This document shows, one piece after another, positions 1-36,294 of a DNA stretch of 64,000 nt. The notes under the pieces are model-generated. The model saw nothing but the letters and a program-made list of their open reading frames with translations, searched no databases and was not told where the DNA came from. The position numbers were made by a program, and so were the translations under genes. Source of the stretch: Cordylochernes scorpioides (taxonomy: Eukaryota > Arthropoda > Arachnida > Pseudoscorpiones > Chernetidae); NCBI GenBank assembly GCA_030710605.1, contig CP092877.1:76426909-76490908 (forward strand). The letters run 5' to 3'. Each line of letters starts with the position of its first letter. Position 1 is the stretch's first letter.

Positions 1-689
1 CAATCCACAATTTTGAATACATTAAATAGTAAAAAACTTATATTTGATCAGAATATTGTTTATTGTAAACTTTCAATATTTCGAAAAGAGACAGAACGTT
101 GATCATCTGATATTTAATCTTTTCCAATATATATTATCCATTTGATGTAAGAGTAGTTCTGACGTAGGTAATGTTAATAAGGTTTGAATACTAGAAGTAG
201 ATGTTCGAAATGCCTCTTTCGTCTATTTATTGACCGTTTAGAATGAGCAAAATTATGATATCTGATAAGCTTGTTATTATGTAATGTCTTTATATATGTA
301 AATACACACAAATTTCTTCAAATAAAAGACATTTCGGCCAGTAAAAAAAGATTTACTGACCGAAGTACCTTTAATTTTAAGAACTATGAAGCCAGTGTAT
401 CTTTACGATAAACAAAAAATGACTCGAAAAAAAAAAGTCAATATTCCTAATCAAGATATTACTCAAATATTTTTAAGATATTTCACATGTAGATAGTTAA
501 AGATTCAGCATATTGGAGATCAAAACCCATGTAATGCTTACGCGACCTAAATAAAAATAAAATTTGGTAAATTTTGGAAGCGAATAAGTAAATGATTAAC
601 ATTATATTTTATTCAATATTAATTTTATTTATTATAAGGCAAAAACGCGCCATCTATATATAAGAATAATATATAAACGTTCTTCTCTG

Positions 690-882
690 ATTTATAATAT
701 TATAAAGTAAATAAAGCTTCCAGGGTTAAGTTTCTTGTTCAAATTTTATTATCTAGCTTTCGGTCTTGTCAGTCTTCCAACAGGAGTATCACGATAATTC
801 ACATCGCACGAAAGCTAGATAATAAAATTTGAACAAGAAACTTAGCCCTGGAAGCTGTATTTACTTTATAATATAAGAATAA
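690..882. repeat. Fold-back element (long hairpin)
   Basis: The arm TTATAAAGTAAATAAAGCTT with CCAGGGTTAAG and ATCTAGCTTTC returns in inverse order after a 40-50 nt loop. The loop holds TTGTCAGTCTTCCAACAGGA. The inner copy lies near 3700-3893 and the inverted-arm copy near 38199-38393. It is probably a fold-back transposon or MITE. No coding capacity. Confidence 0.75.
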
Positions 883-1016
883 TAATCACCATTTATTAAA
901 GAACGAATAATTCTCTTACACATAAATAAATCTATTATACTTGCTGCGATGAAAAAATATTCGGAGGGCTTGGCTTATCAGTGGTAAACCCTACTAGCGG
1001 TTTCATCAGTCTACAG

Positions 1017-1346
1017 CAGTGATTCTCAACCTTTTTTTTGTTGCGGCATTATTTTAAAGATTTGAAAATTTGGCGGCACAATTTTAGAATTTCGCGGCAC
1101 ACTTTTGCTAACTTGAATGCAAGAAAATTCAAATTATGTATCAATATTTCTATGCAAAATATAAGTAATATACATCTCTAACATTCAATTTGCTAATTTC
1201 TTTATTTTAAAAAGTAAAAAAATGAAAAAGAAAAAAAGAAAAACCAATACAAACGTGAACATAATCATATGACTAAAATTCGGCGGCACATTTTTAGAAT
1301 TTCGCGGCACACAAAATCACCGCGGCACATTGGTTGAGAATCACTG
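1017..1346. mobile_element. Non-autonomous hAT element with empty site
   Basis: The element runs from CAGTGATTCTCAACC to GGTTGAGAATCACTG, a 15-bp terminal inverted repeat. It is flanked by an 8-bp direct repeat GTCTACAG (1009-1016 and 1347-1354), the target-site size of hAT transposons. The inner direct copy (near 4015-4030) and the right arm (near 38068) read straight through one GTCTACAG, so they are empty sites. The interior is made of GCGGCACA-type repeats and has no open frame. Insertion postdates both duplications. Confidence 0.92.
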
Positions 1347-1689
1347 GTCTACAGTATTAGAGCTCTAAAAAGTGGTCTCTGATAGGTTAAATTGGCGAAA
1401 CCGCCGGAAGGGTTCACCACTGATGAGCCAAGTCATCCCAATATTTTTCATCCCAGTAAGGATATTAGTTATGTATTTTTTGTATTAATGACATTAGTGA
1501 GATAACATTCGTGATTTAATGATTTCATATCTTATATATAAATGACGTCATATTGTCTTAAAATTGAATTATGCCTAACTAGCATTGTACTTATTGTTAG
1601 AGGAAAATCATTGCTCGATGCAAATATTAAATGTAATTCTACCGTCCTTAAATCGTATGTCCATAGTTTGCTTAAATACCATTTCTAAG

Positions 1690-2790
1690 ATTCAACCCTT
1701 CAACCCTTTAACACTAGCTTGATCATATCGTCTATAACAACTCTGATTTGACTTTCTTCCCTTTCTACACATTCCCATTTTGAAAATAAATTGAAAAATC
1801 AGGTTATATTCATGCTTTTTAAATTTATAGCAGGAATACAGTTAGGTTGCACTTACTATAACTCTAGCTTGATCATATCGTCTTTTAGAAATTGGATTTT
1901 ACCTTTTTCTTTCCTACACATTCCAATTTTTATTTCACATTTATTCTTTTTTTTTAATTTGATAGCTGGAAAACGACTTGGGTTTCGCTAACTATTACCC
2001 TAGTTTGAATCAATCGTCTATTAGAACTTAGATTTGACTTTTTCCTTTCCTAAACATTTTTTTTTCAATTTTGAATATGAGTTGAAAAATCAGGTTTTTT
2101 TTTTTCGCTTTTCAAACTCAGTTTTTGCTACTTATGACCCTTCATTTCTTTTAACTTTGATTAGACTCCCTCTTATTCTTTTCTCTCCCTGCTACACTTC
2201 AAAATTTGAAGTTAAGTTGAAAATTCAGGTTATTACTTTTGCCTTTCAATTTGGTGGCAGGAATACAGCTTAGTTCTCACTAACTATGACCCTTCATCCC
2301 TCTAATAACTTTGATTCAATTCTGTCTTTTTCTTCCCTGCTACACCTTCCAATTTTGAAGATATGTTGGAAAATCAGGTTATATTTTTGCTTTTTAATTT
2401 GGAAAAAAATAAAACAGCTTATAGTTTTCGCTAACTATAACCCTAACTTGATCATATCATTTCTAGGAACGTTGATTTGACTTTTTTCCTTTCCTGCACA
2501 TTCCAATTTTGAAGATAAGTTGAAAATTCAGGTTATATTTTTGTTTTTTAATTTGATGGCAGTAAAACAGCTTAGTCTTCACTATTTATGACTCATTAAT
2601 CCTTCTACACCTCCCAATTTTGAAGATACTTTTAAAAATCAGGTTATATTAATAATTTCTAATTTGGAGGAAAGAAAACGACCTATAGTTTACGTTAACT
2701 ATAACCCTATTCGATTATATCGATTATTAAAACTTGAATTTGATTTTTTCCTTCTCTACATATCCAAATTTAGAAAGTTGATTATTTTAG
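1690..2790. repeat. Satellite array, about 150-bp unit
   Basis: Degenerate tandem units share AGCTTGATCATATCGTCT, a TTTGACTTTTTCCTTTCC segment, ACATTCCAATTTTGAAGA and AAAAATCAGGTTATATTTTT. Key words recur every 135-155 bp (for example near 1719, 1869 and 2445). The same satellite lies inverted at 39480-41465 at the outer end of the other arm. Open frames here (1791-1991, 2034-2273, 2286-2480, 2664-2891) follow the repeat and are not genes. Confidence 0.85.
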
Positions 2791-3699
2791 CATATATATC
2801 GGGATTCAGAAAGTTCTTTAGTGTATCTACCGAAAATTTTACTGTTTCACTTCTGGAGATATATTTGAAGATATATACCTATTTTGTTTGATAACCTATC
2901 AAACATAGATTGTGAGAATATTCCAAGGTTAGAGTTATCTCACTTCTCAGATTAAAAGACTCTGAAATGACGAAACATTAAAACATTCTTATATCTTATT
3001 GAAAATAAAGCAATCCACAATTTTGAATACATTAAATAGTAAAAAACTTATATTTGATCAGAATATTGTTTATTGTAAACTTTCAATATTTCGAAAAGAG
3101 ACAGAACGTTGATCATCTGATATTTAATCTTTTCCAATATATTATCCATTTGATGTAAGAGTAGTTCTGACGTAGGTAATGTTAATAATGTTTGAATACT
3201 AGAAGTAGATGTTCGAAATGCCTCTTTCGTCTAACTATTTATTGACCGTTTAGAATGAGCAAAATTATGATATCTGATAAGCTTGTTATTATGTAATGTC
3301 TTTATATATGTAAATACACACAAATTTCTTCAAATAAAAGACATTTCGGCCAGTAAAAAAAGATTTACTGACCGAAGTACCTTTAATTTTAAGAACTATG
3401 AAGCCAGTGTATCTTTACGATAAACAAAAAATGACTCGAAAAAATCAATACTCATATATTCAAGAAATTACTCAAATATTTTAAAAATATTTCACATGTA
3501 GATAGTTAAAGATTCAGCATATTGGAGATCAAAACCCATGTAATGCTTACGCGACCTAAATAAAAATAAAATTTGGTAAATTTTGGAAGCGAATAAGTAA
3601 ATGATTAACATTATATTTTATTCAATATTAATTTTATTTATTATAAGGCAAAAACGCGCCATCTATATATAAGAATAATATATAAACGTTCTTCTCTGA

Positions 3700-3893
3700 T
3701 TTATAATATTATAAAGTAAATAAAGCTTCCAGGGTTAAGTTTCTTGTTCAAATTTTATTATCTAGCTTTCAGACTTGTCAGTCCTTCAACAGGAGTATCA
3801 CGATAATTCACATCACACGAAAGCTAGATAATAAAATTAGAACAAGAAACTTAGCCCTGGAAGCTGTATTTACTTTATAATATAAGAATAATA
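3700..3893. repeat. Fold-back element, inner copy
   Basis: Second copy of the AAGCTTCCAGGGTTAAG fold-back at 690-882, with the same loop (TTGTCAGTCCTTCAACAGGA). The mirrored copy in the right arm is near 38199-38393. Confidence 0.7.
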
Positions 3894-4287
3894 ATCACCA
3901 TTTATTAAAGAACGAATAATTCTCTTACACATAAATAAATCTATTATACTTGCTGCTATCAAAAAATATTCGGAGGGCTTGGCTTATCAGTGGTAAACCC
4001 TACTAGCGGTTTCATCAGTCTACAGTATTAGAGCTCTAAAAAGTGGTCTCTGATAGGTTAAATTGGCGAAACCGCCGGAAGGGTTCACCACTGATGAGCC
4101 AAGTCATTCCAATATTTTTCATCCCAGTAAGGATATTAGTTATGTATTTTTTGTATTAATGACATTAGTGAGATAACATTCGTGATTTAATGATTTCATA
4201 TCTTATATATAAAAGACGTCTTTTTGCCTTTAAAGTGAATTATGCCTAACTAGCATTGTACTTATTGTAAGAGGAAAAGCATTGCTC

Positions 4288-4935
4288 GATATTGTTGTTG
4301 TCGTGTCCAAAGAAGAGTCTCAGATGTCTCCATGCATCTCCATCACAGCAGCAGCAATATCCACTATCTTGGGTGTGTAAAGCTGATGCTCTGGGTTTAA
4401 GTCAATTTTCTGCAAGGCTGCGGCCATTGCTGGGCAAGAGAATATGTGAGTAGGTGTTAGTTCCACACCAGGACAGTTGTTGTATCTTTTATAGGTTCTT
4501 GTGCCATCTGGATGTATTGCCATTCCTTTATAGTGTTTTGTTCTAAGTCTTTTTATAGTTCTTGTCAGTTTTCTCTCAGAGTTTATTTCACATATTTGAT
4601 CTTTTCTTATTTTTTGTTTGATTATTTTGTATTTTGCCAAAGCATCAGCGTCAAATACTGACATTTGTTCTTTCCTTTGGGTCAGCTTTCTGGCTTCCTT
4701 TGCCAATTCATCTGCCATTTCATTACCCTCGATCCCAACATGAGCAGGAATCCATTGTAGAATGCAGTTCTTCTCCAATGTTTCTAGTTGGGTAAGTAAT
4801 GAGTGTAATCTTTATTGGAAAATGGGTGCCGTTGCCGTCACCTTGGAAACGAACCAGAATTTGGTCAAATATTACAAGGGTCCAGGGGGGACCGCAGGGA
4901 GGTGTGGTCGGACTTCTCCCCCCCACATAGCATTG
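4288..4935 (-). mobile_element. 5'-truncated LINE insertion
   Basis: Minus-strand insert ending in GGACACGACAACAACAAT, a (ACA)n tail in place of poly(A). It is flanked by GCATTGCTCGAT and GCATTGCTCAAT (near 4278-4289 and 4930-4941), a likely 12-bp target duplication. The outer copy (1600-1640) has only one GAGGAAAATCATTGCTCGAT junction, so it is an empty site. The insert holds the RNase H remnant plus a GC-rich head (4830-4930). Confidence 0.8.
4320..4778 (-). pseudogene. LINE RNase H C-terminal fragment
   Basis: The 152-residue frame starts MEKNCILQWIPAHVGIEGNE, then MADELAKEA. This is the C-terminal RNase H region of jockey/R1-type LINE polymerases, with the AHVGI.GNE..D motif carrying the last catalytic Asp. 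A Lys/Arg-rich segment follows, then THIFSCPAMAAALQKI near the end. Upstream RNase H residues and the reverse transcriptase are missing, so it is a 5'-truncated copy. A near-identical inverted copy is at 37313-37771. Tandem pieces of the same 3' end lie at 60640-61410. Confidence 0.88.
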
Positions 4936-5473
4936 CTCAATGGAAATATTAAATGTAATTCTACCATCCTTAAATCGTATGTCTATAGTTTGCTTAAATA
5001 CAATTTCTAAGATTCAACCCTTCAGTGTAGCATTTATAAGCAGAATTATCCAATACATTTTAGAGCTCTACGAAGCAGTTTGGTAGATTAAATTGGCGAA
5101 AACGCTGGGGTGATTCATCACTAATGAGCCCAGCCTTTCCCAATATATTTTTGTCATCGCAGTAAGGACAGTAGAAGTTTGTTTTATTTGTAAACGAAAC
5201 ATTCGTGTTTTAATGATCAGTTATACTGACAATCTTTAGAAAAATCTATCAGAGGGAAAAATTATTCATTGCTTTTTCAATTTAAAAATGTGTTGTAATA
5301 AAAAATACTATATGAAATCTCAAGAAATTGGCAGTATATCGTGGACAAACACTGATGACCGACCTTTGAAATGAACATGATACTTGATGATGTTAAAATA
5401 AAACCTAAGACAAATCCCAGAAAAATATCTTAAGAGCTAAATGTATACAATACGAAAGACATCTAATTATACT

Positions 5474-5668
5474 TATAGACAGAACTTGATTTTGATGTCG
5501 CTTGTTATCTGTTTTTTTTTTTTTTTGAAGGAGACAGAGGCAATTTTGTTCGCAATTGTGTTACTTCAATAAAGGTCGCTGTGTATCAAATATCATTCAG
5601 AGTTATTGTCTAAATCCCGATATACATGCTAAAAGGTACAGCTTCCTTAAGTTTTGTTTATGAGTGTA
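5474..5668. mobile_element. MITE of the ACTCATGGACAAAACTT family
   Basis: Copy of a 190-230 bp element. Its hallmarks are GGAGACAGAGGCAATTTTG, CAATAAAGGTC, a CTGAATCCCGATATACATGC segment, a poly-T tract, and ends resembling CTTAAGTTTTGTCCATGAGTG. The same family occurs at 9147, 19518, 30955, 36295, 41765, 48568, 49253, 49624 and 50653. A degenerate Tc1 gene at 51206 begins with the same end sequence. Confidence 0.75.
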
Positions 5669-5714
5669 TATAGAATTTCCAATTCTGAAAATCGAAATAC
5701 TATCTAATATTCAT

Positions 5715-5984
5715 CTATCCCCCGATTTACACGGTACTTGTTTTACACGTTTTCGCTTTTATACGGTTTCCCAAATAAGTTTTTTTTTGTTTTTATCGCA
5801 CTATACTAAATGCTACTGTGATTGAACACATGCGCTGTGTACACATCTCACGAGGAATCCCGAGCTTATGTGCTGACTTGCTGCACACGCACTCTGTGTC
5901 TGTATTTCTAATTTTTAAAAATGTTCAATTGTCGATTTACACGTTTTTCTCAGGAACGTATCTACCGTGTAAATCGAGGGATAG
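5715..5984. mobile_element. MITE with CTATCCCCCGATTTACACGG ends
   Basis: About 270 bp between CTATCCCCCGATTTACACGG and CCGTGTAAATCGAGGGATAG, an inverted terminal repeat of at least 20 bp. The ends resemble those of non-autonomous pogo/Tigger-type elements (inference). The interior is non-coding. The mirrored copy is at 35978-36246. Confidence 0.75.
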
Positions 5985-6763
5985 GTGTATATGATAATTT
6001 AGAAAAATACTATCTATAGAAATAGAAAATGTCTAGATTATGAAGTTATAATATGTACAACTTGACAAAGAAATGGGTAGAACTAGTAGGATGGAGGTTA
6101 TAGAAGGAAGTAAAAAAGCAGAAGTAGAGAAAGTTTGAGGGGAAAGGAAGAAATTTGTGCGGAATAAACACTAGGACTTCCCTATAGTTTTCTGCTTTAC
6201 CCTATCGAACTTTGAATCTTGTTGGTTTGAAATAAAATCCGTAATTGTGTGAAAGAACGACTGAATTTAAACTAATACCGATATGCTACAACGTTATGCA
6301 TTGCCGTGTAATCTATGAACAAGTAATGAAGCTATTTTTACACAATTTATTTTATAAATAAATCAACTTCCTACTGTCCTTTCTGCGATGAAAAATATTG
6401 TAAGAGCCTGGCTCATCAGTGGTGAAACCTCCCAAGTGTTTAACAAGTTTAATCAACCATACTACTTTACTATTTAAGATAAAGTAAACATCCAATGATG
6501 AGTTTTTTTTTTTTTAGATTCGTTTAATGTTGAGGAAACGTGAAGAATAATCATAGATTTCTTTTGATTAGATAATCCACCAATATAAGTCTCAACTCCA
6601 GCGATAATCTTCATATGATCTGCTTTTCCTGGATGTCAGTATTTTAAACATTTGGCTATATTTTAACTTTACTATTTTATTTGGAATTATTCTGTATATA
6701 TTTCAAGAATCAAAAAGAAATCTTGGTTAAAGTTTTTAGTCAAAAGGCGATCCATTAATTAAG

Positions 6764-6926
6764 ATTATATAAAAGGGCGTACCTGGATCTATAAAGAAAA
6801 AAAAAACAATTTTTTTTCTTAAAATATTTAAATTGATAAAGAAAGAGCAATCTTTCGAAATATTTTAAGAAAAAAAATGTTTTTTTTTTTCTTTACAGAT
6901 CCAGGTACGCCCTTTTATATAATCTT
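6764..6926. repeat. Long hairpin (fold-back)
   Basis: AAGATTATATAAAAGGGCGT with ACCTGGATCT and an A-rich tract returns in inverse order at 6895-6926. The arms are about 70 bp around TTGATAAAGAAAGAGC. The mirrored copy is at 34701-34863. Non-coding. Confidence 0.8.
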
Positions 6927-7171
6927 GGTTAAAGTATTTAGCAAATATATGGACAAAATCTTAAAGGGAGAAATATATATATAATAGAAAAAAGACATAC
7001 ATCTATATATTATACTGCTTTTTAATTGTTGTTTAGAAAAAGAGATTTCATTACTGACATTATATATTTCAATATCAAATCATTATACCTTTTTAAATAA
7101 ATATATATTTTTTATATATAGTATGTGAAAAAAATAATAATGAATAATAAAAAGGTCAGGTGTTGATATTA

Positions 7172-7412
7172 AAAATAAAGAAGGCATATCCTAACCAGGA
7201 GCACATGTGCTTTTTTTAGATGGCGGAGCGCCATCTAGTGGAACAGAAATAAAATAATCGTGAATGCCTTTTCTTGATTTATAAATAAAATGGGTTGGCC
7301 AAATATCAAGGTAAAGACTAAATCAACGTTTAGTTAATTTCTGTTCCACTAGATGGCGCTCTGCCATCTAAAAAGCACATGTGCTCTTGGTCAGGATATG
7401 CCTTTTTTATTT
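7172..7412. repeat. Fold-back element with ATGGCGGAGCGCCAT palindrome
   Basis: The ends GGCATATCCTAACCAGGAGC and GGTCAGGATATGCC are inverted. The subterminal arms AGCACATGTGCT and AGATGGCGGAGCGCCATCTA with GTGGAACAGAAAT match between the two sides. The core contains TTGATTTATAAATAAAATGG and TTGGCCAA. The same core words recur beside the hammerhead at 61690-61720, suggesting relation to a Penelope-type terminal repeat (inference). The mirrored copy is at 34205-34436, and a partial copy is near 27870-28010. Confidence 0.7.
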
Positions 7413-7602
7413 TCAATATATATATACTGATGTAAATAGAGAGGAATCTCTCCCTTTAATTATGTAACAGAACAATGTATTATGGTATCATTCTAGTGAA
7501 AAAAAAATACTATTGATGATGAAGAATGAACCATAATTAAAGGGAGCGGTGCCTCTCTAGATACATAAATATAATCCTCTCGAAACTTTATATTATATAA
7601 TA

Positions 7603-7961
7603 CTAGACGGGTGACCCGGGCTTCGCCCCGGGATTGACCCGTGTGCATATCTACCCGAGTGATATATATTTGGATAATATTTTTTAAATAATTGTTTGTT
7701 ATTAGCATTATCTATTTGTTTGCATCAGCATAATTTAATCTAATCTTTGATAGAGAGCGCTGTTCGTGAGCTAAGTAGAATAATTTGAATATATAGTTTT
7801 AATAATTGATTTATATATTTTTTAAAATAGCCTATCGTCTTTCCCGTATTTTTTTACCTATGTATGGAAATTTTGGTTTGAATTAGTGAACTACTGCGAA
7901 TTTGTATACCGGACATACAAACAAACAAACATACAAACATTGATTTATATATATATATAGA
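7603..7961 (-). mobile_element. Short Helitron-like element
   Basis: On the minus strand it starts TCTATATATATATAAATC followed by ATGTTTGTATGTTTGTTTG. It ends with a GC hairpin (CCCGGGGCGAAGCCCGGG) and CTAG at 7603-7606. A 5' TC, a 3' hairpin and CTRR are Helitron hallmarks. About 360 bp and non-coding, so non-autonomous. The mirrored copy is at 31564-31916, where the hairpin is damaged and a second Helitron-like cluster begins right after the CTAG. Confidence 0.72.
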
Positions 7962-8146
7962 AGATATTGTTTGCGGAGAAGCAATGCTCAATGCAAATAT
8001 TTATTCATGTATTTCTACCATCCCCTCTAAGTTTTACATATATGTTTGTTAAATATTTTATCCAATAAATCCTCTCTAGTACCAAATATTTAAGCAATAG
8101 GCGCGAGTTAGTAGAGTAACTAGTACTCTGGTTAGTAGAGTAACTA

Positions 8147-8909
8147 CGAGGGGCATCCAATAAATAAGTTTCCCTATTTTGTAACAAATAAACAACTTTA
8201 TTTACAATTATGCAGTTATTTTATTTTCATTATACAACTCATAGACTACTTCTTTACATAATCACCATTTCTGTCCAAACATTTTTGGTACCGTTGTAGC
8301 GATTTTTTGATACCACTGTTGTACCAAGCCGTGTCCTGTCTTCGTAGCCAGTGGTTCGCCTCCGCCTGTTTTCAATTCAAATTCAAAACATCTGACATGA
8401 TTGTTCCAATCGAAGAGCATCCAATTTCGATTCCAGGAGGCAGTCGAATCATTATTTCGTCAATGGTGACGCGGCGATTTGCTTCCACCACATTCCGAAC
8501 AGCAGCCACGGCTGCATTGTCCGTAGCAGTAACGGGCCTGTCGCTTCGCTCGTCATCATGCACGTTTTGCTGTCCTTCCAAGAACCATGAACGCCATCGG
8601 CGAACCATTTGGACGCTCATACATCCTTCACCATACACTGACACTAAATTGCGATGAATATTGACCGCAGTTTCATTTTTCGCTGTGAAAAAACGAATTA
8701 CAGAACGGAGTTCGCAAGTGGACACGTTCACCAGTGGTAGCTCCATGGAAACTGAAGCGCTACGAACTTGCGCGTACGAGTAGAGTGATTTTGAAAGGTC
8801 ACCAGCTTCCAACGCATCCTAGTGACCATTTCTTACCTACTAACTAATTTTTACAACGTTTCGTTCGCCGAAAAAAAAATAGGGAAACTTATTTATTGGA
8901 TGCCCCTCG
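8147..8909 (-). mobile_element. Internally deleted mariner element
   Basis: The inverted ends CGAGGGGCATCCAATAAATA and TATTTATTGGATGCCCCTCG are flanked by TA (8145-8146, 8910-8911), as for mariner. The right arm at 31379-31380 has one TA in the sequence GTAAACTAGTTACTC: a clean empty site. At 763 bp it is about half a normal mariner. It carries the N-terminal transposase domain (8372-8812) and the C-terminal tail, but the DDE catalytic region is gone. Confidence 0.93.
8372..8812 (-). pseudogene. Mariner transposase N-terminal fragment
   Basis: 146 residues. The segment CELRSVIRFFTAKNETAVNI is the first helix-turn-helix of mariner/SETMAR-type DNA-binding domains. It is followed by VYGEGCMSVQMVRRWRSWF and a second helical part (VEANRRVTIDEIMIRL). 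The frame then breaks before the catalytic D,D,D residues. About 70 bp further the sequence resembles a mariner C-terminal end (MFGQKW-like, near 8260-8290). It cannot encode an active transposase, though a DNA-binding fragment is conceivable. Confidence 0.85.
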
Positions 8910-9146
8910 TAGTTTACAAATTGTGATAGTTTTGTTCTTTTATATTATTGCATTATAGTAATGGTAATCAAAATGTTGGTCTCTACATCCTAATTAGTTT
9001 ACAGCTTACACATTTTTTACCATTAAAATCTAATGACTGGAAGCAACGATAATTATGTTAACACCATATCATTCAATATTAAGTTGAAAATATCATTCCG
9101 CTTTTATTTTTCTTTATGTATCCTTCTTTTTGTTTTGTATATTCAC

Positions 9147-9340
9147 TCATGGACAAAACTGGAAGTTGATAGTCTTTGATGTCGATAGTGATCTGTTGTT
9201 TTTTTTTTTTTTTTATGGAGACAGTGGTAATTTTGTTCACACTTAGTTTTCTCGTGTATCTTCAATAAAGATTATTGTAATATCTTTCAGAGTTATTGTC
9301 TGAATCCCGATATACATGCTAAAAGGCACAAAAAGGATTA
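9147..9340. mobile_element. MITE of the ACTCATGGACAAAACTT family
   Basis: Begins CACTCATGGACAAAACTGGA and contains a poly-T tract, CAATAAAGAT and CTGAATCCCGATATACATGC. The far inverted end is missing after AAAAGGCACAAAAAGG. Mirrored copy at 30955-31150. Confidence 0.72.
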
Positions 9341-9556
9341 TTATAAAATAAATAAAGCTTCATAAAGAGTTGCACAAGAAACTTATTCTTGGTAAACTTT
9401 TTAATTTTCAAGCTTTTAGACTTGTCAGTTCTTCAAAAGGAGTATCGCGTTAATAAATTACTGATAAATACTATTTTTGTATATATACAAGAGAGTTATT
9501 ATTTAAAATACTTATGATATGGAGAGAGAGAGAAAATATATTACATTCTTTGTGTG

Positions 9557-9632
9557 TATAAAACAATACTTAAAGTTTCACCGCATAAGTTTCTTTTCTG
9601 TTATGCGGTGAAACTTTAAGTATTGTTTTATA
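9557..9632. repeat. Perfect 32-bp palindrome, 12-nt loop
   Basis: Arms 9557-9588 and 9601-9632 are exact inverse complements around the loop GTTTCTTTTCTG. ATTCTTTGTGTGT stands on both sides (9544-9556 and about 9661-9673), as expected for a small fold-back insertion. The mirrored copy lies near 30667-30742, where the palindrome is conserved. Confidence 0.85.
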
Positions 9633-10549
9633 ATCACACGCCGCAGTCCTTTATAATGTATTCTTTGTGTGTGAAAAAAATACCTTTTGAAAATATACGT
9701 GCTTGATGGATAATGCATGCTGGTTAAATGATATCTCGAGACTTCAAATTAAATTTAATAAATTCGTGAACTATTGTGGTATATATATAAGAGTGCCTAC
9801 ATCTATGGGATAGTATTTGTCCATATTGTTTCATTTTTTATAATTTACAGATGATGAAGCTTTATCTTTTTTTAAACAAACTGACAAAAAGAAATTTATT
9901 TTACAAGTTTCTTGGAATGAATAAGGATGTTTTAGAGCTGTTAGGCCTAGATAGCTTGGTGCACACTGTATTCTAAAACCAAGGAATATAGTCAACGAAT
10001 ATATTTCTTCATTATACAGGTATTTATTTAAGGTCAAATGTGCTTGTATGAATTTAATTATATTTTTAAAAAAGGTTAAAGAGAGAGAATAAAGTTAGGA
10101 GACTCTTAATTTGTAAAATAATAGTGAAAAAAAAATCGATTTTTTTTTTTTCAGTTTATATTTTTCACGATAGATGGCGTCCTGGTATCAGAAACATCTT
10201 GCAGACGCCCAAAGCTACGTTTTATTTATGAATAATTTTGTGTGTTTGTTTATTTGTTTAAAATATTAATAAAGTAAAATTTTGCAATTTTCGTTTATTC
10301 CTATAATTAAATTATACTAAGAAAATATGCAAATTTATTATCATTATCCAGACAAATTGATTTATTTTATATTTTTTAAAGTCCAAAATCATGCAACTAC
10401 TAAATAGAAGATTAAAACATATCAGGATACTTTGACTAATAAGTGATAAACCTAAAATTCATTTAACTCTTCAGTGATTATAGATATTTGCATATTAAAA
10501 TATAGAGAATAAATTTGCGCTGATAATGGCTATGGTTTTAATTTTTAAA

Positions 10550-10900
10550 GATGGTCGAGGAGGAGTGTGGTGGATTATCGTGTGTAGACGCTTAGTGTTC
10601 TCTGCGTGCTATATCCCTGTCTGGTGATCTCCTCGCATACCTGTATGACCCCGGTCCGATCCCTACCAACGCAACAATAAAGATAAGTACTGTGTGTGTG
10701 TTTTTTTTTTTAATTTTATTTAACAAATCGTGAGTTATTATTTACTTTTTTTTGTGTTGTACTCTTGAGTCTATGTTTTTTTCTGTGTTAAAGTTACTCT
10801 TACTGTAGGCCCTAGTTTATTGCATTTTTTGTTAACCCGTACTAAGTAACTTTTGTCATTGGCGTTTTGTTTTGTGTTCTAATAAACCACACTATAACAC
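10550..10900. other. Left-arm-only insert, partly GC-rich
   Basis: The right arm passes directly between the flanking words (near 29740-29760), so this segment is extra here. It contains GGTCCGATCCCTACC, similar to a Pol III B box, and an AACAATAAAGATAAG tail. A tRNA-derived SINE is possible, but I cannot identify a clear A box or tRNA fold. No open frame. Confidence 0.4.
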
Positions 10901-11379
10901 AGACCTGTACAACGTACGTTCGGTTCAGTCATTAACCAGATTTTAAACGGTCCACCTCTTAATTTTATAATATTGCCACCCGGAAAATTAGGGAAGACAA
11001 ACTTCATTTATTTGGAGCAAGAACAAACTATATATGATAAACAAAAGGAATGAGGGAAGTTTACAGAGTAAATATCGAAATTGATCTTCTGTTATTAAAA
11101 TAAAAAAATACTTCGCTATAATATTTTTGAAATAGAAACTTATTCTGAAAGCTTGTATATTATTTTAAAGATGTTAATTATTTTTTATTACTATCTCATT
11201 GTATAAGTATACAAGGTTACACACATAGACTGAATTTAGTCCATAAATCATTCAGAATACATATTACAAATCATGTTAGATTCGCCAGTGTTTTGATCGA
11301 TTTTTTCTAATATTCATTTGCTAATTATAATTATTTATCAATATTTTTCTAATATTATACTTTCTATATACAACAATAA

Positions 11380-11570
11380 CAACAAGGCTTTTATTACGGC
11401 CCATTGACGGTATGTGACGCTAAGTTTGTTGTTGAAACACTTTAAAATGTTATAATACCTTGATAAAGGTTGGCGTTTTGCCAACTGAAATATTGGTAAA
11501 ATAAATGATATTTTGATCCAGTATATGCCTTTTTAATTAAAGGTTTATTTATGGATTGCTCTATTTCAAA
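11380..11570. repeat. Dispersed repeat with hammerhead-like hairpin
   Basis: Contains TTGATAAAGGTTGGCGTTTT followed by GCCAACTGAAATATT, a hairpin between a TGATAAA and a GAAA box. The conserved tail is TTTTGATCCAGTATATGCCT then GGATTGCTCTATTT. The same tail follows similar hairpins at 58070-58150 and 59195-59290. This looks like a degenerate hammerhead-bearing repeat; core residues are not intact. Confidence 0.5.
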
Positions 11571-12560
11571 ATAATATATATCAATATGGATATATAATTC
11601 CACATTTTACAAATAATATTAATTTATTTATGTATTATTTAGCCTACACCAGGCATATGGAGAACTTCGTCACACAACAACAAAACAATACAGCAATTCT
11701 TCTCCCTTTCCCCTTGTGCACGTGAGTCTTTGTTTGAAAGGGATTTATTTACACATCTGTTCTAAAACTTTCCTCACTACCTCTTTTGTGTATGAATATA
11801 TTTACAATTGATCTGTAGAAATTATAGAGTTCTATTGCTATAATTTTCTTTTCTGAAATAGTTCTCAGCGTCTTCAGTGGGTTGCTAAGTCTCCAAAAGG
11901 TATACTATCTATATACATATAATATTCCTTTTGCATATGGTAGCAATTTATTTATAATATTTTATGTATAGTTTATCAATTTTTTTTATATTTATATTAT
12001 TTATATTTTGCTATTCTCTGAAAACTTTCCTCATTGCTTATCTTATATCTTATAAATATGTTGATTTTGTTTTTCCCTCAAAAAAATTGTTGTGTTATTC
12101 TGAAGTTTGTCTTTCCTAATTTTCTCCGTTACAATATACTACACCAAAATAAATTTTTAAATTGTAAAAATTTCAACTAATTCTCTAATTTCTAAATTCT
12201 ACAGACAAATAATCTCATACATTTTTCCATTGCAGTAAGGTCAGTATAAATTGTTTTATTTTTAAAAGAATCATACTCGTCTATAATAATATCGAATTTT
12301 CATAAAACATAATGATATATTATAACAATTTTTTCTTATTTTTATGTCAATATAACACGCGGATAATAATGGATATACTGATAAGTTATAACTAAAGATT
12401 GACTTAGGTTTGATTCCGAATATAAACCCCATAACCAAATCTATAAAATAATAAAAAATATATTAGTTTCGCATGGGGAATAATTTATTTTGTACACAGT
12501 TCTTTTTTCTCTCTTTCTTATTGTTAATATCATATGATTATTATATTCACGGCCTGTTTT
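11570..12560. other. AT-rich spacer, left arm only
   Basis: About 1 kb with no counterpart in the right arm near 29430. I see no protein domain, tRNA or clear terminal repeats. There is a copy of the CATTGCAGTAAGGTCAGTA word shared with other dispersed repeats (near 12231). Confidence 0.5.
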
Positions 12561-12566
12561 ATTGTA

Positions 12567-12731
12567 CAGTCAAACCTGTCTATAGCACCCCCTTCTTGGG
12601 ACTCACCAAAATAGGGTGCTATAGAGAGGGGGTGCTATAGACAGGTCACTTTTAATATAAATCGCATTGTACTACGTATTTAAAATCGGGCGCTATAGAG
12701 AGGGAGGCGCCATTTAGAGGGGGCGCTATAT
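12567..12731. mobile_element. Truncated pogo/Tigger-like MITE
   Basis: Starts CAGTCAAACCTGTCTATAGC after TA and contains repeated GGTGCTATAGAGAGGG and GGGGGCGCTATA words. It lies in TATATA DNA that is uninterrupted in the right arm (near 29405-29435), so it is a left-only insertion. The far terminal repeat is not clear. Confidence 0.6.
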
Positions 12732-13154
12732 ATATGTATAGACAAATGTAAAGGCATACCTGTATGACAGCGCAAGTGTCCCTAGGGGGAAATAGCGCTT
12801 TAAATTCAAATAAAATAATAGGGAATAATTGTATTGTATTTTTTAAATTTGGAAAGGAAGCACTGTTTCTTATATATTTGACTTATAAATCCAGCACGCT
12901 ATTTGATGGGGTATTTTTTCATCATTTTCTTATTCATCTTCCTATTTTGTTTATGGATTTTGTGGTTTTTTGGGATTTCGTCCCTGTAGAGATTATAGGT
13001 TGTCGAGAATTTGTGACCCAGATCTACTCTTCACATATTGACAATTAACATAATTATATTGACATCTTGTACATGTAAAGGTTCAAAGATTAAACTATAT
13101 CATATGTAATGAATATATTGATGGCGCCACTGCCATATATGTTGTTGTTGTCAT

Positions 13155-13745: not shown

Positions 13746-14227
13746 AATCCTTTGGTAAATGAATAGAATCCTCACGCAATTTCAGTTTCTAATATATATA
13801 ATATAAGTTTTTAATATATGATGGTAACGTATTCTGGTGATAGATGCGTACCTTTGTTTAATACTTTAGAATTATTTCTAGTTTTTATTGCTTAATAAAT
13901 GAGTTTTTGGGATTTGGAATATCTATGGAGGATTAAGGTATATTATGACTTTATGATGCAATAAATTATATCTATAATATTAATTCAATCAAATTTATTA
14001 AATAAATTCTGTAATTGTTATTAATGATTCAATGGTTTCTAAGAATGTATTGATTTTATTGGAAAATTAAATATCCTTTTTTTTTCAAGGTAGAAGTGCT
14101 GATCTGTGTGTGAGTGAGAAAGAGAGAATATTGAATATTCTTTATCACACATATATGACATAATTGGAAGGAAATGAGGTTTTTATGAACCTTCAATGTT
14201 GATTGTGTCTCGTTATGAAATGTAGGT

Positions 14228-14760
14228 CGGTTCGCGTTCCGGCGGCTGCCTTATCTGATGTAGCGGTGCTTTGGGCCGGTATATAGCAGGGTGGGGGAGT
14301 TGTGGGAGTCACTCGAGCTCTGGCCACCATGGGATGTCAGGTGGGTATCTCTGTGGGTCGGTATATAGGAGAGTAGTAGTTTTGTGGGAGTCACTCGTGC
14401 TCTGGAAAACATGGAATGTCAGGGGAGTACTTCTGTGGGTGTATCGGTTCTGTGGGTTGGTATATAAGAGGGTGGGAGAGTTGTGGGAGTCACTCGAGCT
14501 CTGGAAACCATTTTGTCAGGTGGGTACCTCTGTGGGTGTATCGATTCTGTGGTTTGGTATATAAGAGGGTGGGAGAGTTGTGGGAGTCACTCGAGCTCTG
14601 GAAACCATTGGATGTCAGGTGGGTACCTCTGTGGGTGTATCGATTCTATGGTTCGGTATATAGGAGGGTAGGGGAGTTTTGGGAGTCACTCAGGCATTGG
14701 ACACCATGGAATGTCAGGTGAGTATCTCTGATGTCGAGTTCATGGGATTTCATTTTCATA
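14228..14760 (+). promoter_or_regulatory. Five-unit promoter plus first-exon array, gene 1
   Basis: Tandem units of 82-99 bp each hold TATATAG/TATATAA, the spacer GGTGGGGGAGTTGTGGG-like, an initiator TCACTC, CTCTGG, a start region and a 5' splice site. TATA starts are 14280, 14362, 14461, 14558 and 14657. Initiator A positions are 14311, 14393, 14492, 14589 and 14688, always 31 nt later. Units 1 and 5 are intact (ATG GGA TGT CAG then GTGGGTA; ATG GAA TGT CAG then GTGAGTA). Unit 2 has GG in place of the donor GT. Units 3 and 4 have lost the ATG. A decayed TATATATAA follows at 14792. The long open frames (14271-14721) arise because the period is near a multiple of three. Confidence 0.85.
14706..14717 (+). 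CDS. Gene 1 first coding exon (unit 5)
   Basis: Predicted exon ATG-GAA-TGT-CAG (Met-Glu-Cys-Gln) in the context ACACCATGG. It ends at a consensus donor CAG/GTGAGTA at 14718. Transcription is expected at A14688, giving an 18-nt leader. It joins in phase 0 to 16728. Unit 1 (14329-14340, Met-Gly-Cys-Gln, donor 14341) is an equivalent alternative. The call rests on promoter grammar and phase; no transcript was seen. Confidence 0.68.
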
Positions 14761-14799
14761 TCTCTGTGGGTGTATCGGTTCTGTAGGCCATTATATATA

Positions 14800-15800
14800 A
14801 AGCTAGAAAAATTATTAATGTCTTTTTATCTCTAAAATATGGAACTCCAGTTATGAAGTCGTTTTAGGCATAAGAAACTTTAAATATAATTCGACAAATT
14901 GTATAAATCTATCCCAACTCTGGTATCCATGTGTGTCATTAACGTTTTCTTATTTCAAAACTATATGCTCATGTGTATGCGTCATTTACAAGGAATAAAA
15001 TAAGGCTTAAAAACAAACAATGACAGTTTTATATAAATAGAGATAAAATTATATAATAAATATTTTTTAAATAATTTTTATATGTAAAAAAATTGAAAAT
15101 ATAATTATTATTTAAATTATAAAAACCCTCTTTCAACTATCTGTTTTCTATTTTATCTTTAATTAAGCAAAACCTGCTCCATCTCGTTTTACATAAATGT
15201 TGAAAATTTGGTTGAAATTGATGCATTGTAACGAAAGTTTTTAGTGATGTCCACTTATGAAATTTCCATTTTATTAATATAGATGAAAGGCAAAATGGTT
15301 CTGAATCATAATAAAAGAATGAGAGAGAAAATCGGGTCTTCTGTGATTTTCTACCTTATCAAGAATATCACTTTTATCCTTTATTATAGCTTTTAAAACT
15401 TTATATTAAAGATATTTGAGATAGTGAGCGGTACAATTTATGATTTGAAATTTCTACACTGTTAAAAAGGTGGATGAAGAATCAATCACATATATGAGGA
15501 CAAAACTTGGTTCATTATCTAACAATTCAATTTTAGCTTTCTTTAATTATGGTTTTATGGTAAAAGAGAACCTTTATATAGATTTCTCATTTGACGAATT
15601 CAATATAGATTAAGTTTTTCATGATGCATCTTGTCTCAAATCGAATTTACTATGCAAGAAATATAGAGTTACCTGAAAATTATTTTATTAAAAACAATTG
15701 GTTGTTTAGAAAAGTGTATCTTTTTTTTCGATTATCTTAAAATAAAAATATACTTTTATTTTAACCAACAATTGAATTTTCTTATTTTATTATTTTTATT
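14800..15800 (+). other. Gene 1 intron, AT-rich
   Basis: Part of the predicted intron 14718-16727. Portions (about 15180-15620) resemble the gene 2 intron (25380-25740), confirming joint duplication. No internal exon, tRNA or transposase was seen. Confidence 0.6.
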
Positions 15801-16727: not shown

Positions 16728-17507
16728 GTGGGCTTGGCTTGTGGACTTGTCCTTGTGGCTTTTGCCATCACAGGACTGGAAGCAAAGGCTGTTGAGCTGA
16801 AAAAGAAGCTGACGGAAACGATAGATGACAAGAAAGACTTGAAGGCTGAGGCTTCTCATCACTATGACTCCAAGCATGGAGGTGGCGACTATGGCGGCCA
16901 TGGAGGTGGCTATGGAGGTGGCCATGATGGTGGCTATGGAGGCGGAAAAGGAGGTGGCTATGGAGGCGGACATGGAGGCGATGGAGGCCATGGGATCGGA
17001 GGCTACGGAGGAGGAGGCTACGGCATGAACGACCATTCCCACAAAGAAGACCACAAACACGACCATAAGCATGGCCACAAACATGGCCACGACCACAAAC
17101 ACGGACACAACCACGGCCATAATCATGGTCATAATCACGGTCACAGCGAGAACCACAATCATGGACATAGTCACGGCCACAAGCATGGACATGACCATAA
17201 GCACGATAACAAGCATGTTCATCATCACGAGCATCATCACACTCACCACCATCACCACAAACATCATCATGGTCACGATCACAAAGAGAATCACAAACAC
17301 GGACATGATCACAAAGAGAATCACAAGCACGACCACAAACATGGTCACAAACACGGACATGACCACGGACACAAACATGGTCACGAACATGGACATTCCC
17401 ACAGCCATTCTGGAGGTGGAGGTGGTGGTGGAGGTTATGGAGGTGGTCATGGAGGCTACGGAGGTGGTGGACATGGAGGTTATGGTGGAGGTGGCCACCA
17501 TTACTAA
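16728..17507 (+). CDS. Secreted His/Gly-rich protein, gene 1 main exon
   Basis: The exon begins after a splice acceptor (TTGCTTATTTCCAG, ending 16727) and runs in phase 0 from GTG GGC TTG to TAA. With the four first-exon codons the protein is 263 residues. Order: signal peptide (VGLACGLVLVAFAITGLEA, cleavage likely after EA); a charged segment with KKDLKAEASHHYDS; a GGYGGGHGG repeat region; a His core of HGHKHGHDHKHGH-type repeats with HVHHHEHHHTHHHHHKHHHG in the middle; and a GGYGGGHHY-type tail. The composition predicts extracellular Zn/Cu/Ni binding, for instance in cuticle, jaw or fang, or secretion; that is inference. Paralogues follow at 26540, 44832 and 56967. The in-frame ATG at 16704 lies in the intron and is not the preferred start. 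Confidence 0.85.
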   Translation: MGLACGLVLVAFAITGLEAKAVELKKKLTETIDDKKDLKAEASHHYDSKHGGGDYGGHGGGYGGGHDGGYGGGKGGGYGGGHGGDGGHGIGGYGGGGYGMNDHSHKEDHKHDHKHGHKHGHDHKHGHNHGHNHGHNHGHSENHNHGHSHGHKHGHDHKHDNKHVHHHEHHHTHHHHHKHHHGHDHKENHKHGHDHKENHKHDHKHGHKHGHDHGHKHGHEHGHSHSHSGGGGGGGGYGGGHGGYGGGGHGGYGGGGHHY

Positions 17508-22289: not shown

Positions 22290-22829
22290 ATGAGAATTTT
22301 AGAAAAGCGATGCAATAAAACATCTTTAGTCCTCCAATATCTGCACAATCCGCGAGAACAGTTAGAAAAAAATAAGATGGTCAAAGACTTTAGCGTGAAA
22401 TTGCTTTTGCGTCTTAAACCGTTACAGAAAATGGCCGAAGTAAGAATTCAGGCTGATAATTCGCAACTTCCTCAGAGTTTACAAGAACGCCATGAGCCAT
22501 CACAATCGAATGAAGATCTTACAATTGAGCGCCGATTGCAAGAAGCTATTGAGGCTGCCTCTTCAACTTCAATTGCGATACCTACACCAGAATGCGCATC
22601 CTACTCAACTATGATTAACCACGAACTTAATATTGCTGCTCAGTCAGGCAAACGAGGACTCCATTTGGAGAGTGTGTATCAATACTTGCTGACAATTCCT
22701 CCAATGTCTGTGGAATCGGAAAGACTCTTCTCCTCCTCTGGATACCTATGCAATAAGATACGTTCTAGTTTGCATGATGACACTCTTGACAAATTATCTT
22801 TCCTACGCTCAAATCTTTCTCGATATTGA
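22290..22829 (+). pseudogene. hAT transposase C-terminal fragment
   Basis: 179 residues ending with ESVYQYLLTIPPMSVESERL, then FSSSGYLCNKIRSSL and a final LDKLSFLRSNLSRY. This is the hAT dimerisation motif (Ser-x-x-x-E-R-x-F-S, then R-x-x-L), as in ZBED/hAT transposases. The catalytic and BED zinc-finger parts are absent upstream. The 3' terminal repeat GCCCAACACTG ends at 23141, a hAT-like end (CAGTGTTGGGC in reverse). The matching 5' end was not found, so it is a 5'-truncated relic. Confidence 0.82.
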
Positions 22830-24540: not shown

Positions 24541-24935
24541 GATGTAGCGGTGCTTTGGGCCGGTATATAGGAGGGTAGAAGAGTTGTGGGAGTCACTCGA
24601 GCTCTGGACACAATGGGATGTCAGGTGGGTACCTCTGTGGGTGTATTGGTTCTGTGGGTCGGTATATAGGAGGGTAGGGGAGTTGTGGGAGTTACTTGAG
24701 CTCTGGACACCATGGGATGTCAGGTGGGTACCTCTGTGGGTGTACCGGTTCTGTGGATCGGTATATAGGAAGGTAGGGGATTTGTGGGAGTCACTCGAGC
24801 TCTGGGCACCATGGGCTATCAGATGGGTACCTCTGTGGGTGTATCGGTTCTGTGGGTCGGTATATAGGAGGGTAGGGGAGTTGTGGGAGTTACTCGATTT
24901 CTGGACATCATGGGATGTCAGGTGGGTACTTCTAT
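24541..24935 (+). promoter_or_regulatory. Four-unit promoter plus first-exon array, gene 2
   Basis: Exact 99-bp period. TATATAG starts are 24564, 24663, 24762 and 24861. Initiator A positions are 24595, 24694, 24793 and 24892 (TCACTC or TTACTT/TTACTC), always 31 nt later. Each unit continues to ATG GGA TGT CAG (unit 3: ATG GGC TAT CAG) and a donor GTGGGTA at 24625, 24724 and 24922. In unit 3 the donor is AT (24823), so it should not splice there. A decayed unit with TATAAATAAGG follows at 24960. The upstream element with TTCCGGCGGCTGC is shared with gene 1. The 117-residue frame over the array exists because 99 is divisible by three. Confidence 0.86.
24910..24921 (+). CDS. Gene 2 first coding exon (unit 4)
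   Basis: Met-Gly-Cys-Gln followed by donor GTGGGTA at 24922, joining in phase 0 to 26540. Units 1 (24613-24624) and 2 (24712-24723) encode the same peptide with the same donor and are equivalent alternatives. Predicted from promoter spacing and splice phase only. Confidence 0.68.
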
Positions 24936-26189
24936 AGGTGTATATGCACTGTAGGACGGTATAAATAAGGTTCTAAAAATCATTTATACTACTTGAAATC
25001 TCTAAGCAATAAAATATTCTAGATAAGCTCTTAAGATTGTTTCAAACAATAAAATTTCAAAATTACTTAATTTTGAGATATCTATATTAGCTCTGGTCTC
25101 CATGGATGTCATATAAGTGAGTGCATATTTTTCAAAGGAAGAGGCTCATATGTATCAATGTGATTAAAATGAAATATAAACAGAGTTTCAAAATCAAACG
25201 ATTTTTCATATAAGCAGAGAAGATTAAAAAGTATTAACCATTTTTTCAGTGTTTTGAAAAATTTTAATGATATTATAAGCAATTGGATATACCAATACCC
25301 GGTAGTTGGCGATCTATGTATACCCTTTTGAAGTCTGGGTTACCTTTTTAATATAAAAGTATTTGAAACATAATTTTTCATGAAGATCTCACTTTTTGTA
25401 ACTCTCTTCTTTCTCTCCATCTCATGATCAAATAAAATATAATCGTTTAGAATCAGAATAAAAAGAAGAAGATAAAATCGGGTTTTATCAAACTATGAAC
25501 TTAGCATCAATAGCAGTTTTTATTGGTAATGACAAGCTTCTACCAAATAAATTATTTAAGATAGAGATAGATAAAATGTATGGTTTAGAATGTCTACACT
25601 GTCAAAAATGTTAGTAAAAAATTATAAACTTTGGCTTGGTTGAAACTTGTTTCATTATCTGATATGCAATTTTTATTTTTAATTTGAATTATTTTATTAT
25701 GGTGATCCATTATGACTCTCATTGAAAAATAAAAATCTAAATCAATTTTTAATAGTGAATCCGTTTAATTTACCATAGGCAAGGAATGTCTTTATACCCA
25801 ATAATCTAAAAAAATAATAATTGGTTCTTGGGAAAAATGTTTATTTTTCTATTAGTCACCTTAAAATGAAAATATATTATAGGAGCCAAAACCCTATTTT
25901 CTGTGCGAGATTGTTTATATTTTAATAATTTATCACATTTGTGAGTTTTTCTATCGTATATTACTCAATATCAAATATTTTAGAAAATAAATAAATCTGG
26001 AAAAAAAACAATTTTTTTAAATTCATTTTTATATTTTTATTCACACACCTTGCTTCCTTCATTTAAAAAGGTTGTAGTGTGTCGATTAATTAAGTACAGC
26101 GAGGGCCTTAAAAGTATTTCAAAGCTTTTCTTTATAGTTATCATGCATTATTAGATACATTTATATAGAAAGTCAATAATGGAAGTCAA

Positions 26190-26539: not shown

Positions 26540-27265
26540 GTGGCCTTGGCTTGTGGACTTGTCCTCGTGGCTTTCGCGATCTCAGGACTGGAAGCAAAGG
26601 CTGTTGATCTGATCAAGAAACCGACGAAACTGGTCGCAGACAAGAAGGACTTGAAGGCTGAGGCTTCTCACCACTATGACTCCAAGCACGGAGGTGGAGA
26701 CTATGGCGGCCATGGAGGTGGCTATGGAGGTGGCCATGATGGTGGCTATGGAGGTGGACATGGAGGCGATGGGGGCCATGAGGTCGGAGGCTATGGTGGT
26801 GGAGGCTACGGCATGAACGACCATTCCCACAAAGAAGACCATAAGCATGACCATAAGCATGGCCACAAACATGGCCACGACCACAAACACGGACACAACC
26901 ACGGCCATAACCATGGTCATGGACACAGTCACAGCGAGAACCACAATCATGGACATAGCCACGGCCACAAACATGGGCATGACCATAAGCACGATAACAA
27001 GCATGTTCATCATCACGAGCATCATCACACTCACCACCATCACCACAAACATCATCACGGCCACGATCACAAAGAGAATCACAAACACGGACATGATCAC
27101 AAAGAGAATCATAAGCACGACCATAAACATGGTCACAAACATGGACATGACCACGGACACAAACATGGTCATGAACATGGACATTCCCACAGCCATTCTG
27201 GAGGTGGTGGTGGTGGAGGTTATGGAGGTGGACATGGAGGTTATGGAGGCGGTGGACACCATTAA
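26540..27265 (+). CDS. Secreted His/Gly-rich protein, gene 2 main exon
   Basis: Follows acceptor TTTCTTTTCAG (ending 26539). With four first-exon residues the predicted protein is 245 residues. The signal peptide (VALACGLVLVAFAISGLEA), KKDLKAEASHHYDS segment, GGHGG region and His core are almost identical to gene 1; even the HVHHHEHHHTHHHHHKHHHG block is unchanged. It differs by lacking one GKGGGYGGGHGG repeat and by the linker after KAVDL. It ends GGHH. High similarity at silent sites suggests recent duplication or gene conversion. Probable role as gene 1: extracellular metal-binding or structural protein (inference). Confidence 0.85.
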   Translation: MALACGLVLVAFAISGLEAKAVDLIKKPTKLVADKKDLKAEASHHYDSKHGGGDYGGHGGGYGGGHDGGYGGGHGGDGGHEVGGYGGGGYGMNDHSHKEDHKHDHKHGHKHGHDHKHGHNHGHNHGHGHSHSENHNHGHSHGHKHGHDHKHDNKHVHHHEHHHTHHHHHKHHHGHDHKENHKHGHDHKENHKHDHKHGHKHGHDHGHKHGHEHGHSHSHSGGGGGGGYGGGHGGYGGGGHH

Positions 27266-28923: not shown

Positions 28924-29005
28924 GATAGTGGATATTGCAACTGCTGTGATAGAGATGCATAGGTACATCTAAGGCTCTTCATTGGACACGACAACAACAA
29001 CAACA
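28924..29005 (+). mobile_element. LINE 3' end fragment
   Basis: Contains AAGATAGTGGATATTGCAAC, GTGATAGAGATGCATAGG and the GGACACGACAACAACAACAA tail, the 3' terminus of the LINE at 4288 and 37285. The left arm retains the matching tail (GTTGTTGTTGTCAT) immediately before the N gap. Confidence 0.75.
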
Positions 29006-30666: not shown

Positions 30667-30742
30667 AACAATACTTAAAGTTTCACCGCATAACAGAAAA
30701 GAAACTTATGCGGTGAAACTTTAAGTATTGTTTTATACACAC
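30667..30742. repeat. Perfect palindrome, mirrored copy
   Basis: Same fold-back as 9557-9632, arms AAAACAATACTTAAAGTTTC and CACCGCATAA around a short loop. Its conservation in both arms shows it predates or equals the inverted duplication. Confidence 0.8.
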
Positions 30743-30954
30743 AAAGAATGTAATATATTTTCTCTCTCTCTCCATATCATAAGTATTTTAAATAATAACT
30801 CTCTTGTATATATACAAAAATAGTATTTATCAGTAATTTATTAACGCGATACTCCTTTTGAAGAACTGACAAGTCTAAAAGCTTGAAAATTAAAAAGTTT
30901 ACCAAGAATAAGTTTCTTGTGCAACTCTTTATGAAGCTTTATTTATTTTATAAT

Positions 30955-31150
30955 AATCCTTTTTGTGCCTTTTAGCATGTATATCGGGATTCAGACAATA
31001 ACTCTGAAAGATATTACAATAATCTTTATTGAAGATACACGAGAAAACTAAGTGTGAACAAAATTACCACTGTCTCCATAAAAAAAAAAAACAACAGGTC
31101 ACTATCGACATCAAAGACTATCAACTTCCAGTTTTGTCCATGAGTGAATA
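30955..31150. mobile_element. MITE of the ACTCATGGACAAAACTT family
   Basis: Mirror of the 9147-9340 copy, ending in CCAGTTTTGTCCATGAGTG. Confidence 0.72.
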
Positions 31151-31563
31151 TACAAAACAAAAAGTAGGAAACATAAAGAAAAATAAAAGCGGAATGATAT
31201 TTTCAACTTAATATTGAATGATGTGGTGTTAACATAATTATCGTTGCTTCCAGTCATTAGATTTTAATGGTAAAAAATGTGTAAGCTGTAAACTAATTAG
31301 GATGTAGAGACCAACATTTTGATTACCATTACTATAATGCAATAATATAAAAGAACAAAACTATCACAATTTGTAAACTAGTTACTCTACTAACCAGAGT
31401 ACTAGTTACTCTACTAACTCGCGCCTATTGCTTAAATATTTGGTACTAGAGAGGATTTATTGGATAAAATATTTAACAAACATATATGTAAAACTTAGAG
31501 GGGATGGTAGAAATACATGAATAAATATTTGCATTGAGCATTGCTTCTCCGCAAACAATATCT

Positions 31564-36246: not shown

Positions 36247-36294
36247 ATGAATATTAGATAGTATTTCGATTTTCAGAATTGGAAATTCTATATA

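Follow-up and report, generated by a model that had tools for sequence, protein, structure and literature searches.

Tandem units of putative core promoter and start exon precede a family of His/Gly-rich protein genes in the pseudoscorpion Cordylochernes scorpioides

It is proposed that the tandem repeats found upstream of a family of His/Gly-rich protein genes in Cordylochernes scorpioides are multiplied gene starts, in which unit 1 serves as the principal promoter and start exon and the downstream copies are minisatellite-like duplicates, some competent and mostly drifting; we give this reading a probability of about 0.6. Each unit would consist of a core promoter and a 30-nt first exon, which comprises an 18-nt leader, the codons M-G-C-Q and a splice donor, and local minisatellite-type multiplication would have brought it, gene by gene, to 1-13 copies. 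Polymerase II would most likely start at unit 1, the copy farthest upstream, beside a conserved regulatory block of ~100 bp, and the unit 1 exon would be spliced to exon 2 over the remaining units, which then lie in intron 1. The downstream copies would be gained, lost and duplicated with little selection on start codon, initiator and donor. Of these copies, one of the four in gene 1 and two of the three in gene 2 are intact; such copies could initiate transcription and lead to the same mature protein, which would make them redundant.

The window, that is, the whole analysed stretch of 64,000 nucleotides, holds two such arrays (Table 1). Direct reading of 14228-14760 gives five tandem units upstream of gene 1, each with TATATA and, exactly 31 nt 3' of it, the A of TCACTC; the TATA box and the initiator distance that the sequence-only reading had ascribed to five repeats are thus borne out in 5/5 units, and the splice acceptor at 16728 is as it described. 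The four-codon start exon with donor, which it had attributed to every unit, is complete in two of the five: start codon and GT donor are both present in units 1 and 5 only, and unit 3 (reading CCATTTTGTCAG) and unit 4 (reading CCATTGGATGTCAG) are without an in-frame ATG. In silico joining of each start exon to the acceptor at 16728 yielded, for units 1 and 5, a 263-aa precursor that begins MGCQ or MECQ, respectively, and continues with VGLACGLVLVAFA, in which a signal peptide is recognized by eye; unit 2 gave a 263-aa precursor only with the use of a non-GT donor, and units 3 and 4 gave no precursor in this joining through either their own or a later donor. The suggestion that every unit starts useful transcripts is doubtful for unit 2 and is contradicted for units 3 and 4. 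The second array (24564-24921) precedes gene 2 and has four units, three of them complete. Each array is followed by a much decayed, TATA-bearing, unit-like stretch (14757-14860 and 24931-25040).

Table 1. Units, exons and flanking elements in the window; positions are those of the window, and a slash marks the exon-intron boundary.
Feature	Position	Strand	Description
Proximal block	14180-14279	+	directly 5' of array 1 unit 1; not repeated between units
Array 1 unit 1	14280-14340	+	TATATA from 14280, +1 A 14311, exon 14311-14340, MGCQ, CAG/GTGGGT; intact
Array 1 unit 2	14362-14422	+	TATATA from 14362, +1 14393, ATG kept, donor lost: CAG/GGGAGT (no GT)
Array 1 unit 3	14461-14519	+	TATATA from 14461, +1 14492, start codon lost, GT kept
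Array 1 unit 4	14558-14618	+	TATATA from 14558, +1 14589, ATG changed to ATT, GT kept
Array 1 unit 5	14657-14717	+	TATATA from 14657, +1 14688, MECQ, CAG/GTGAGT; intact
Gene 1 exon 2	16728-17507	+	remainder of the signal peptide (recognized by eye) and the Gly/His-rich protein
Array 2 unit 1	24564-24624	+	intact, MGCQ/GTGGGT
Array 2 unit 2	24663-24723	+	intact
Array 2 unit 3	24762-24822	+	donor lost, CAG/ATGGGT
Array 2 unit 4	24861-24921	+	intact
Gene 2 exon 2	26540-27265	+	paralogue with array 2
Gene 3 exon 2	44832-45506	+	paralogue without array
Gene 4 single promoter and noncoding exon 1 (candidate)	54613-54668	+	TATAAG 54615, A 54644, AAG/GTGGGT; by eye, weak
Gene 4 exon 2	56967-57668	+	own ATG; paralogue without array

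Scanning both strands of the window with a matrix built from the units gave 55-75 bits for the nine array units and -16 for the next best site, a gap that shows separation only, because the matrix was trained on the array units. A chance origin of the unit motif was rejected by the unit-matrix scans. Raw conservation among the nine window units (permutation p 0.007 for TATA plus initiator, 0.43 for start plus donor) was not relied on, as A/T sites in this AT-rich genome change less.

The arrays extend through the gene family. A search of the genome with array 1 returned 24 matches, 22 of them in C15:76276232-76451851 (both window arrays included) and two on C12, and a whole-genome search with exon 2 returned at least 22 matches, 21 on C15 and one on C12. 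An array lies upstream of 19 of these at least 22 matches; genes 3 and 4 are without one, and the match at C15:76267472, the upstream sequence of which is unreadable, was left out of all array counts. The sequence-only reading was right in part and had noted a single array; the pattern is family-wide, and a single-locus oddity was rejected by the genome search. Scores above 12 on the unit matrix were obtained at 87 sites, every one on the + strand (C15, 80; C12, 7). Two of them were removed manually, one being a fragment that overlaps the next unit and the other lying in a G run, so that 85 units across 19 arrays remain. Counting partial edge units, the arrays have 1-13 units each (5, 2, 3, 5, 2, 2, 1, 3, 4, 13, 2, 10, 4, 7, 3, 4, 5 and 4 on C15; 6 on C12); 18/19 have two or more, some partial, and the remaining one is a single truncated unit. 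The units are arranged head-to-tail with a period of mostly 99 bp, and their number varies from 1 to 13 between genes.

The TATA-to-A spacing is 31 in 75/85 units, 30 in seven and 29 in one, and was not read in two. We define as intact a unit with ATG, a 12-nt coding stretch ending in AG, and GT, without a stop; 56/85 units (18 first, 33 internal and 5 last) are intact and encode M-x-x-Q/K in frame with exon 2, in every case MGCQ or a sequence one or two changes from it, and the other 29, array 1 units 2, 3 and 4 among them, lack the same in-frame N-terminus. The AG acceptor is kept in 18/19 exon 2s, and the start-exon frame fits exon 2. From these features we infer transcription and splicing, and the earlier proposal that the unit is a core promoter and start exon spliced to 16728 appears, on sequence alone, well supported by the same geometry in 19 arrays, each 5' of an exon 2, and by constraint on TATA, initiator (Inr), ATG and GT in the first units.

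Exon-2 ORFs of 241-325 aa are present in 16/19 array genes, and in 15 of these 16 the product contains 24-30% His and 25-38% Gly. The gene with exon 2 at C15:76286227, counted among the 16, has 13% His and 14% Gly and may be frameshifted, since its tail is unlike the family; in the other three array genes the exon-2 ORF measures 22, 39 and 141 aa. Purifying selection acts on the start region of exon 2 (49 codons), with mean dN 0.131 and dS 0.560 (120 pairs, 16 genes). The family member at C15:76300798 has ATG in place of GTG as the first exon-2 codon, and translation could start there. No Pfam match was obtained for the exon-2 frames of genes 1-4 at E 0.1. A protein search with the full exon 2, in which the best 7992 candidates were scored, returned five hits, all of them weak (E 3e-5 to 1e-3) and to an assortment of proteins, e.g., HypB and a Daphnia holotricin-3-like protein; residues 1-60 gave nothing up to E 1. 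Neither the protein searches nor searches of the open-access literature on such proteins and on pseudoscorpions yielded a described counterpart of the family. The predicted signal peptide, recognized by eye, suggests that the proteins are probably secreted. A role in metal-hardened cuticle is only a thought; histidine and zinc in arachnid tools are discussed in PMC8410824, the relevant sections of which contain nothing on this family.

Intactness depends on the position of a unit. Across the 19 arrays, intact units make up 18/19 of the first, 33/48 of the internal and 5/18 of the last units; in the 16 arrays with an exon-2 ORF of at least 200 aa the figures are 16/16, 25/37 and 5/16 (some unit flags rest on self-written motif patterns that were checked by eye against the sequences). 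Because the array edge partly truncates last units, the fair contrast is that of first versus internal units, for which Fisher's test gave p 0.010 in the 16 arrays; by random placement within arrays all first units would be intact with a probability of 0.0006, or 0.022 when the last unit is excluded. These and the following position statistics come from genes that are few and related, from units related by descent and from several tests tried. The equivalence of all units was rejected by the decay and position effects.

Base changes follow the same pattern. For first units, the change ratio of TATA/Inr/ATG/GT to flanking sites is 0.17 (bootstrap over genes 0-0.35; permutation of columns p 0.005), and for internal units it is 0.63 (0.36-0.98; p 0.076). 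At G/C sites, functional positions are changed in 0/96 cases in first units (flanks 34/480) and in 22/221 in internal units (flanks 88/1107), and this base-matched comparison found no constraint on Inr, ATG and GT of internal units relative to the flanks; at A/T sites the changes are 3/192 (flanks 11/272) in first and 7/444 (flanks 33/628) in internal units. First units carry one change in Inr, ATG and GT, versus 6.2 expected from random draws among the non-last units of each array (p 0.005), and the same within-array permutation showed no first-unit difference at flanking sites (p 0.15). Without three close paralogues the first versus internal contrast at functional sites weakens, p going from 0.010 to 0.044. 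Unit 1 is no separate lineage: when the unique upstream flank is included in the alignment, 19/19 first units are nearest to another first unit, whereas in an alignment that begins at TATA most of them (12.8/19) are nearest to an internal unit.

Unit 1 of each array is also distinguished by what lies beside it. From -100 to TATA, the 19 genes have a consensus identity of 0.81-0.88 (30-bp bins), versus 0.44-0.69 further upstream; since the flank of internal units differs, this block of about 100 bp is not repeated with the units.

In the neighbouring genes 16 and 17 (the latter is the window's gene 1) the arrays correspond unit for unit and have therefore been copied along with the genes; that of gene 17 has one unit more. 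Units 3 and 4 of gene 1 are 97% alike and both have ATT, and the matching unit of the neighbour gene keeps ATG, so that the extra unit is best read as a copy of a unit already carrying ATT for ATG. Internal units of one array are only a little closer to each other than are those of different arrays (distance 0.100 versus 0.114, p 0.034). The longest array, with 13 units, belongs to a gene with a frameshifted exon 2, a frameshift that could be a sequencing error. Three genes, each with a short intron, are reduced to a single complete unit plus a truncated one; long ORFs are kept in two of these genes, and the third has an early stop in exon 2.

Several observations count against unit 1 as the main start with drifting copies. 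Two or more units, some partial, in 18/19 arrays is a lot for pure drift, and the 31-nt spacing in 75/85 units and an internal ratio (0.63) below 1 point the same way, as does the slight conservation of internal TATA boxes, which is expected if internal promoters matter. These boxes are changed in 4/222 cases versus 33/628 at flanking A/T sites (p 0.034; 16 genes) and versus 5/66 in the frameshifted 13-unit gene (p 0.032), in both cases among several tests tried, and they may have some function, though the evidence is thin. The arrays might be an output amplifier, a tentative possibility in which parallel starts from intact units share the upstream block, give the same protein and are favoured by selection for copy number. 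Such an amplifier would fit the many units complete for start and donor, the retention of TATA and of the spacing, the near-identical product of every intact unit, a gene copy number that suggests demand for the product, and the case of PEP1 in Arabis alpina, where both members of a tandem pair of promoter/exon-1 copies can be in use (PMC3527215). However, internal start codons, initiators and donors are without constraint at G/C sites, and defective units are still present, one of them having been duplicated. The array of 13 copies, moreover, belongs to a frameshifted gene, and long ORFs occur in two of the genes that are down to a complete and a truncated unit. Judged from their sequences, the further intact units can make only the same precursor or close variants, and internal TATA conservation hints only weakly at added output. 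It is likewise doubtful, though conceivable, that the arrays are a family-wide expression rheostat, in which the copy number of parallel polymerase entry points beneath a single upstream block would set the output of each gene, minisatellite slippage would change that number and the first unit would be the obligatory start.

Internal units might also act without making a message, their TATA boxes serving as landing sites for TBP or polymerase, or their donors as U1 sites that keep the intron open, in either case aiding unit 1. The slight conservation of internal TATA boxes beside unconstrained G/C sites of Inr, ATG and GT would agree with such a role, which we consider improbable: the statistical margins are narrow (p about 0.03 among several tests tried), and the U1 version is opposed by internal donors that are not clearly conserved above the flanks (GT changed in 4/74). 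Assemblies easily get the size of short tandem repeats wrong, and there is a run of N close to array 1, so the arrays could be misassembled copies or a satellite unrelated to the genes, but 19 arrays with distinct substitutions, each directly 5' of an exon 2, together with the AG acceptor in 18/19 exon 2s and the fitting start-exon frame, make an artefact of this kind very improbable. The architecture is in our view real, repeated and odd, and amplification of output is a possible but not the best-supported account of it.

Minisatellites consist of head-to-tail units in variable number, with decayed edge units and copying within the array. The pseudoscorpion arrays resemble them in being head-to-tail, in a number that varies between genes, in decayed edge units and in within-array copying; they differ in that the unit comprises a putative core promoter, start exon and donor and that the first copy looks protected. 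Constraint was seen in the first unit, weakly at internal TATA and not at internal Inr/ATG/GT G/C sites. In variable first-exon clusters such as UGT1A and the protocadherins, several promoter/first-exon units feed one downstream exon and encode different proteins; the pseudoscorpion units would likewise feed one downstream exon, but the four residues encoded by the intact ones are identical or closely similar. The repeated spacer promoters of ribosomal DNA are multiplied 5' of one transcription unit, as are the promoters described here, but they are served by Polymerase I and have no start exon or donor, unlike the pseudoscorpion units, which carry both. A two-copy precedent is PEP1 (the FLC orthologue) of Arabis alpina, in which exon 1 and parts of the promoter are duplicated in tandem and both copies are spliced to one exon 2 (PMC3527215; PMC7927791), with the same protein predicted from both copies in one accession (PMC3527215). 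There, the two exon-1 copies are 6.3 kb apart, the duplicated segments measure up to ~2 kb and both copies are found in cDNA. The pseudoscorpion genes share with this locus the promoter/exon-1 copies upstream of one exon 2, in 19 arrays (one of them a single truncated unit), and differ from what is reported of it by a unit of ~99 bp, by copy numbers that reach 13 and by the number of arrays, 19, all read at the DNA level. Narrow search phrases in the open-access literature found no comparable multiplied promoter/first-exon arrays. The family offers a natural series, within one animal, of 1 to 13 near-identical core promoters and start exons before otherwise similar genes, which makes it testable whether tandem core promoters add, interfere or do nothing, and which bears on the choice of a start site among equals and on the tolerance of a minisatellite that contains promoters and donors. 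It also brings up an arachnid family of His/Gly-rich, probably secreted proteins.

For the two paralogues without an array, reading by eye and a pattern scan found no shared promoter upstream of gene 3, and the shared promoter of gene 4 is a weak candidate that ranks only 16th on the unit matrix within the window. A different minisatellite with a unit of ~26 bp (54715-55611) starts directly 3' of the putative first exon of gene 4 and, should this exon prove correct, would be another case of promoter-proximal tandem repeats in the family. A match to U4 spliceosomal RNA (44611-44739, minus strand, 84.8 bits) lies less than 100 bp before exon 2 of gene 3. Genes 1 and 2 are flanked by a large inverted repeat (1-13151 and 28994-39046) with 94-97% identity in aligned pieces over 500 bp and down to 82% in shorter pieces, which may be a scaffolding artefact because a run of N is found near one arm end. 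The window further contains a C-terminal fragment of a hAT transposase (22290-22829) and a Tc1-type transposase ORF (47072-48118) that is 93% identical to C. scorpioides proteins, once over its whole length.
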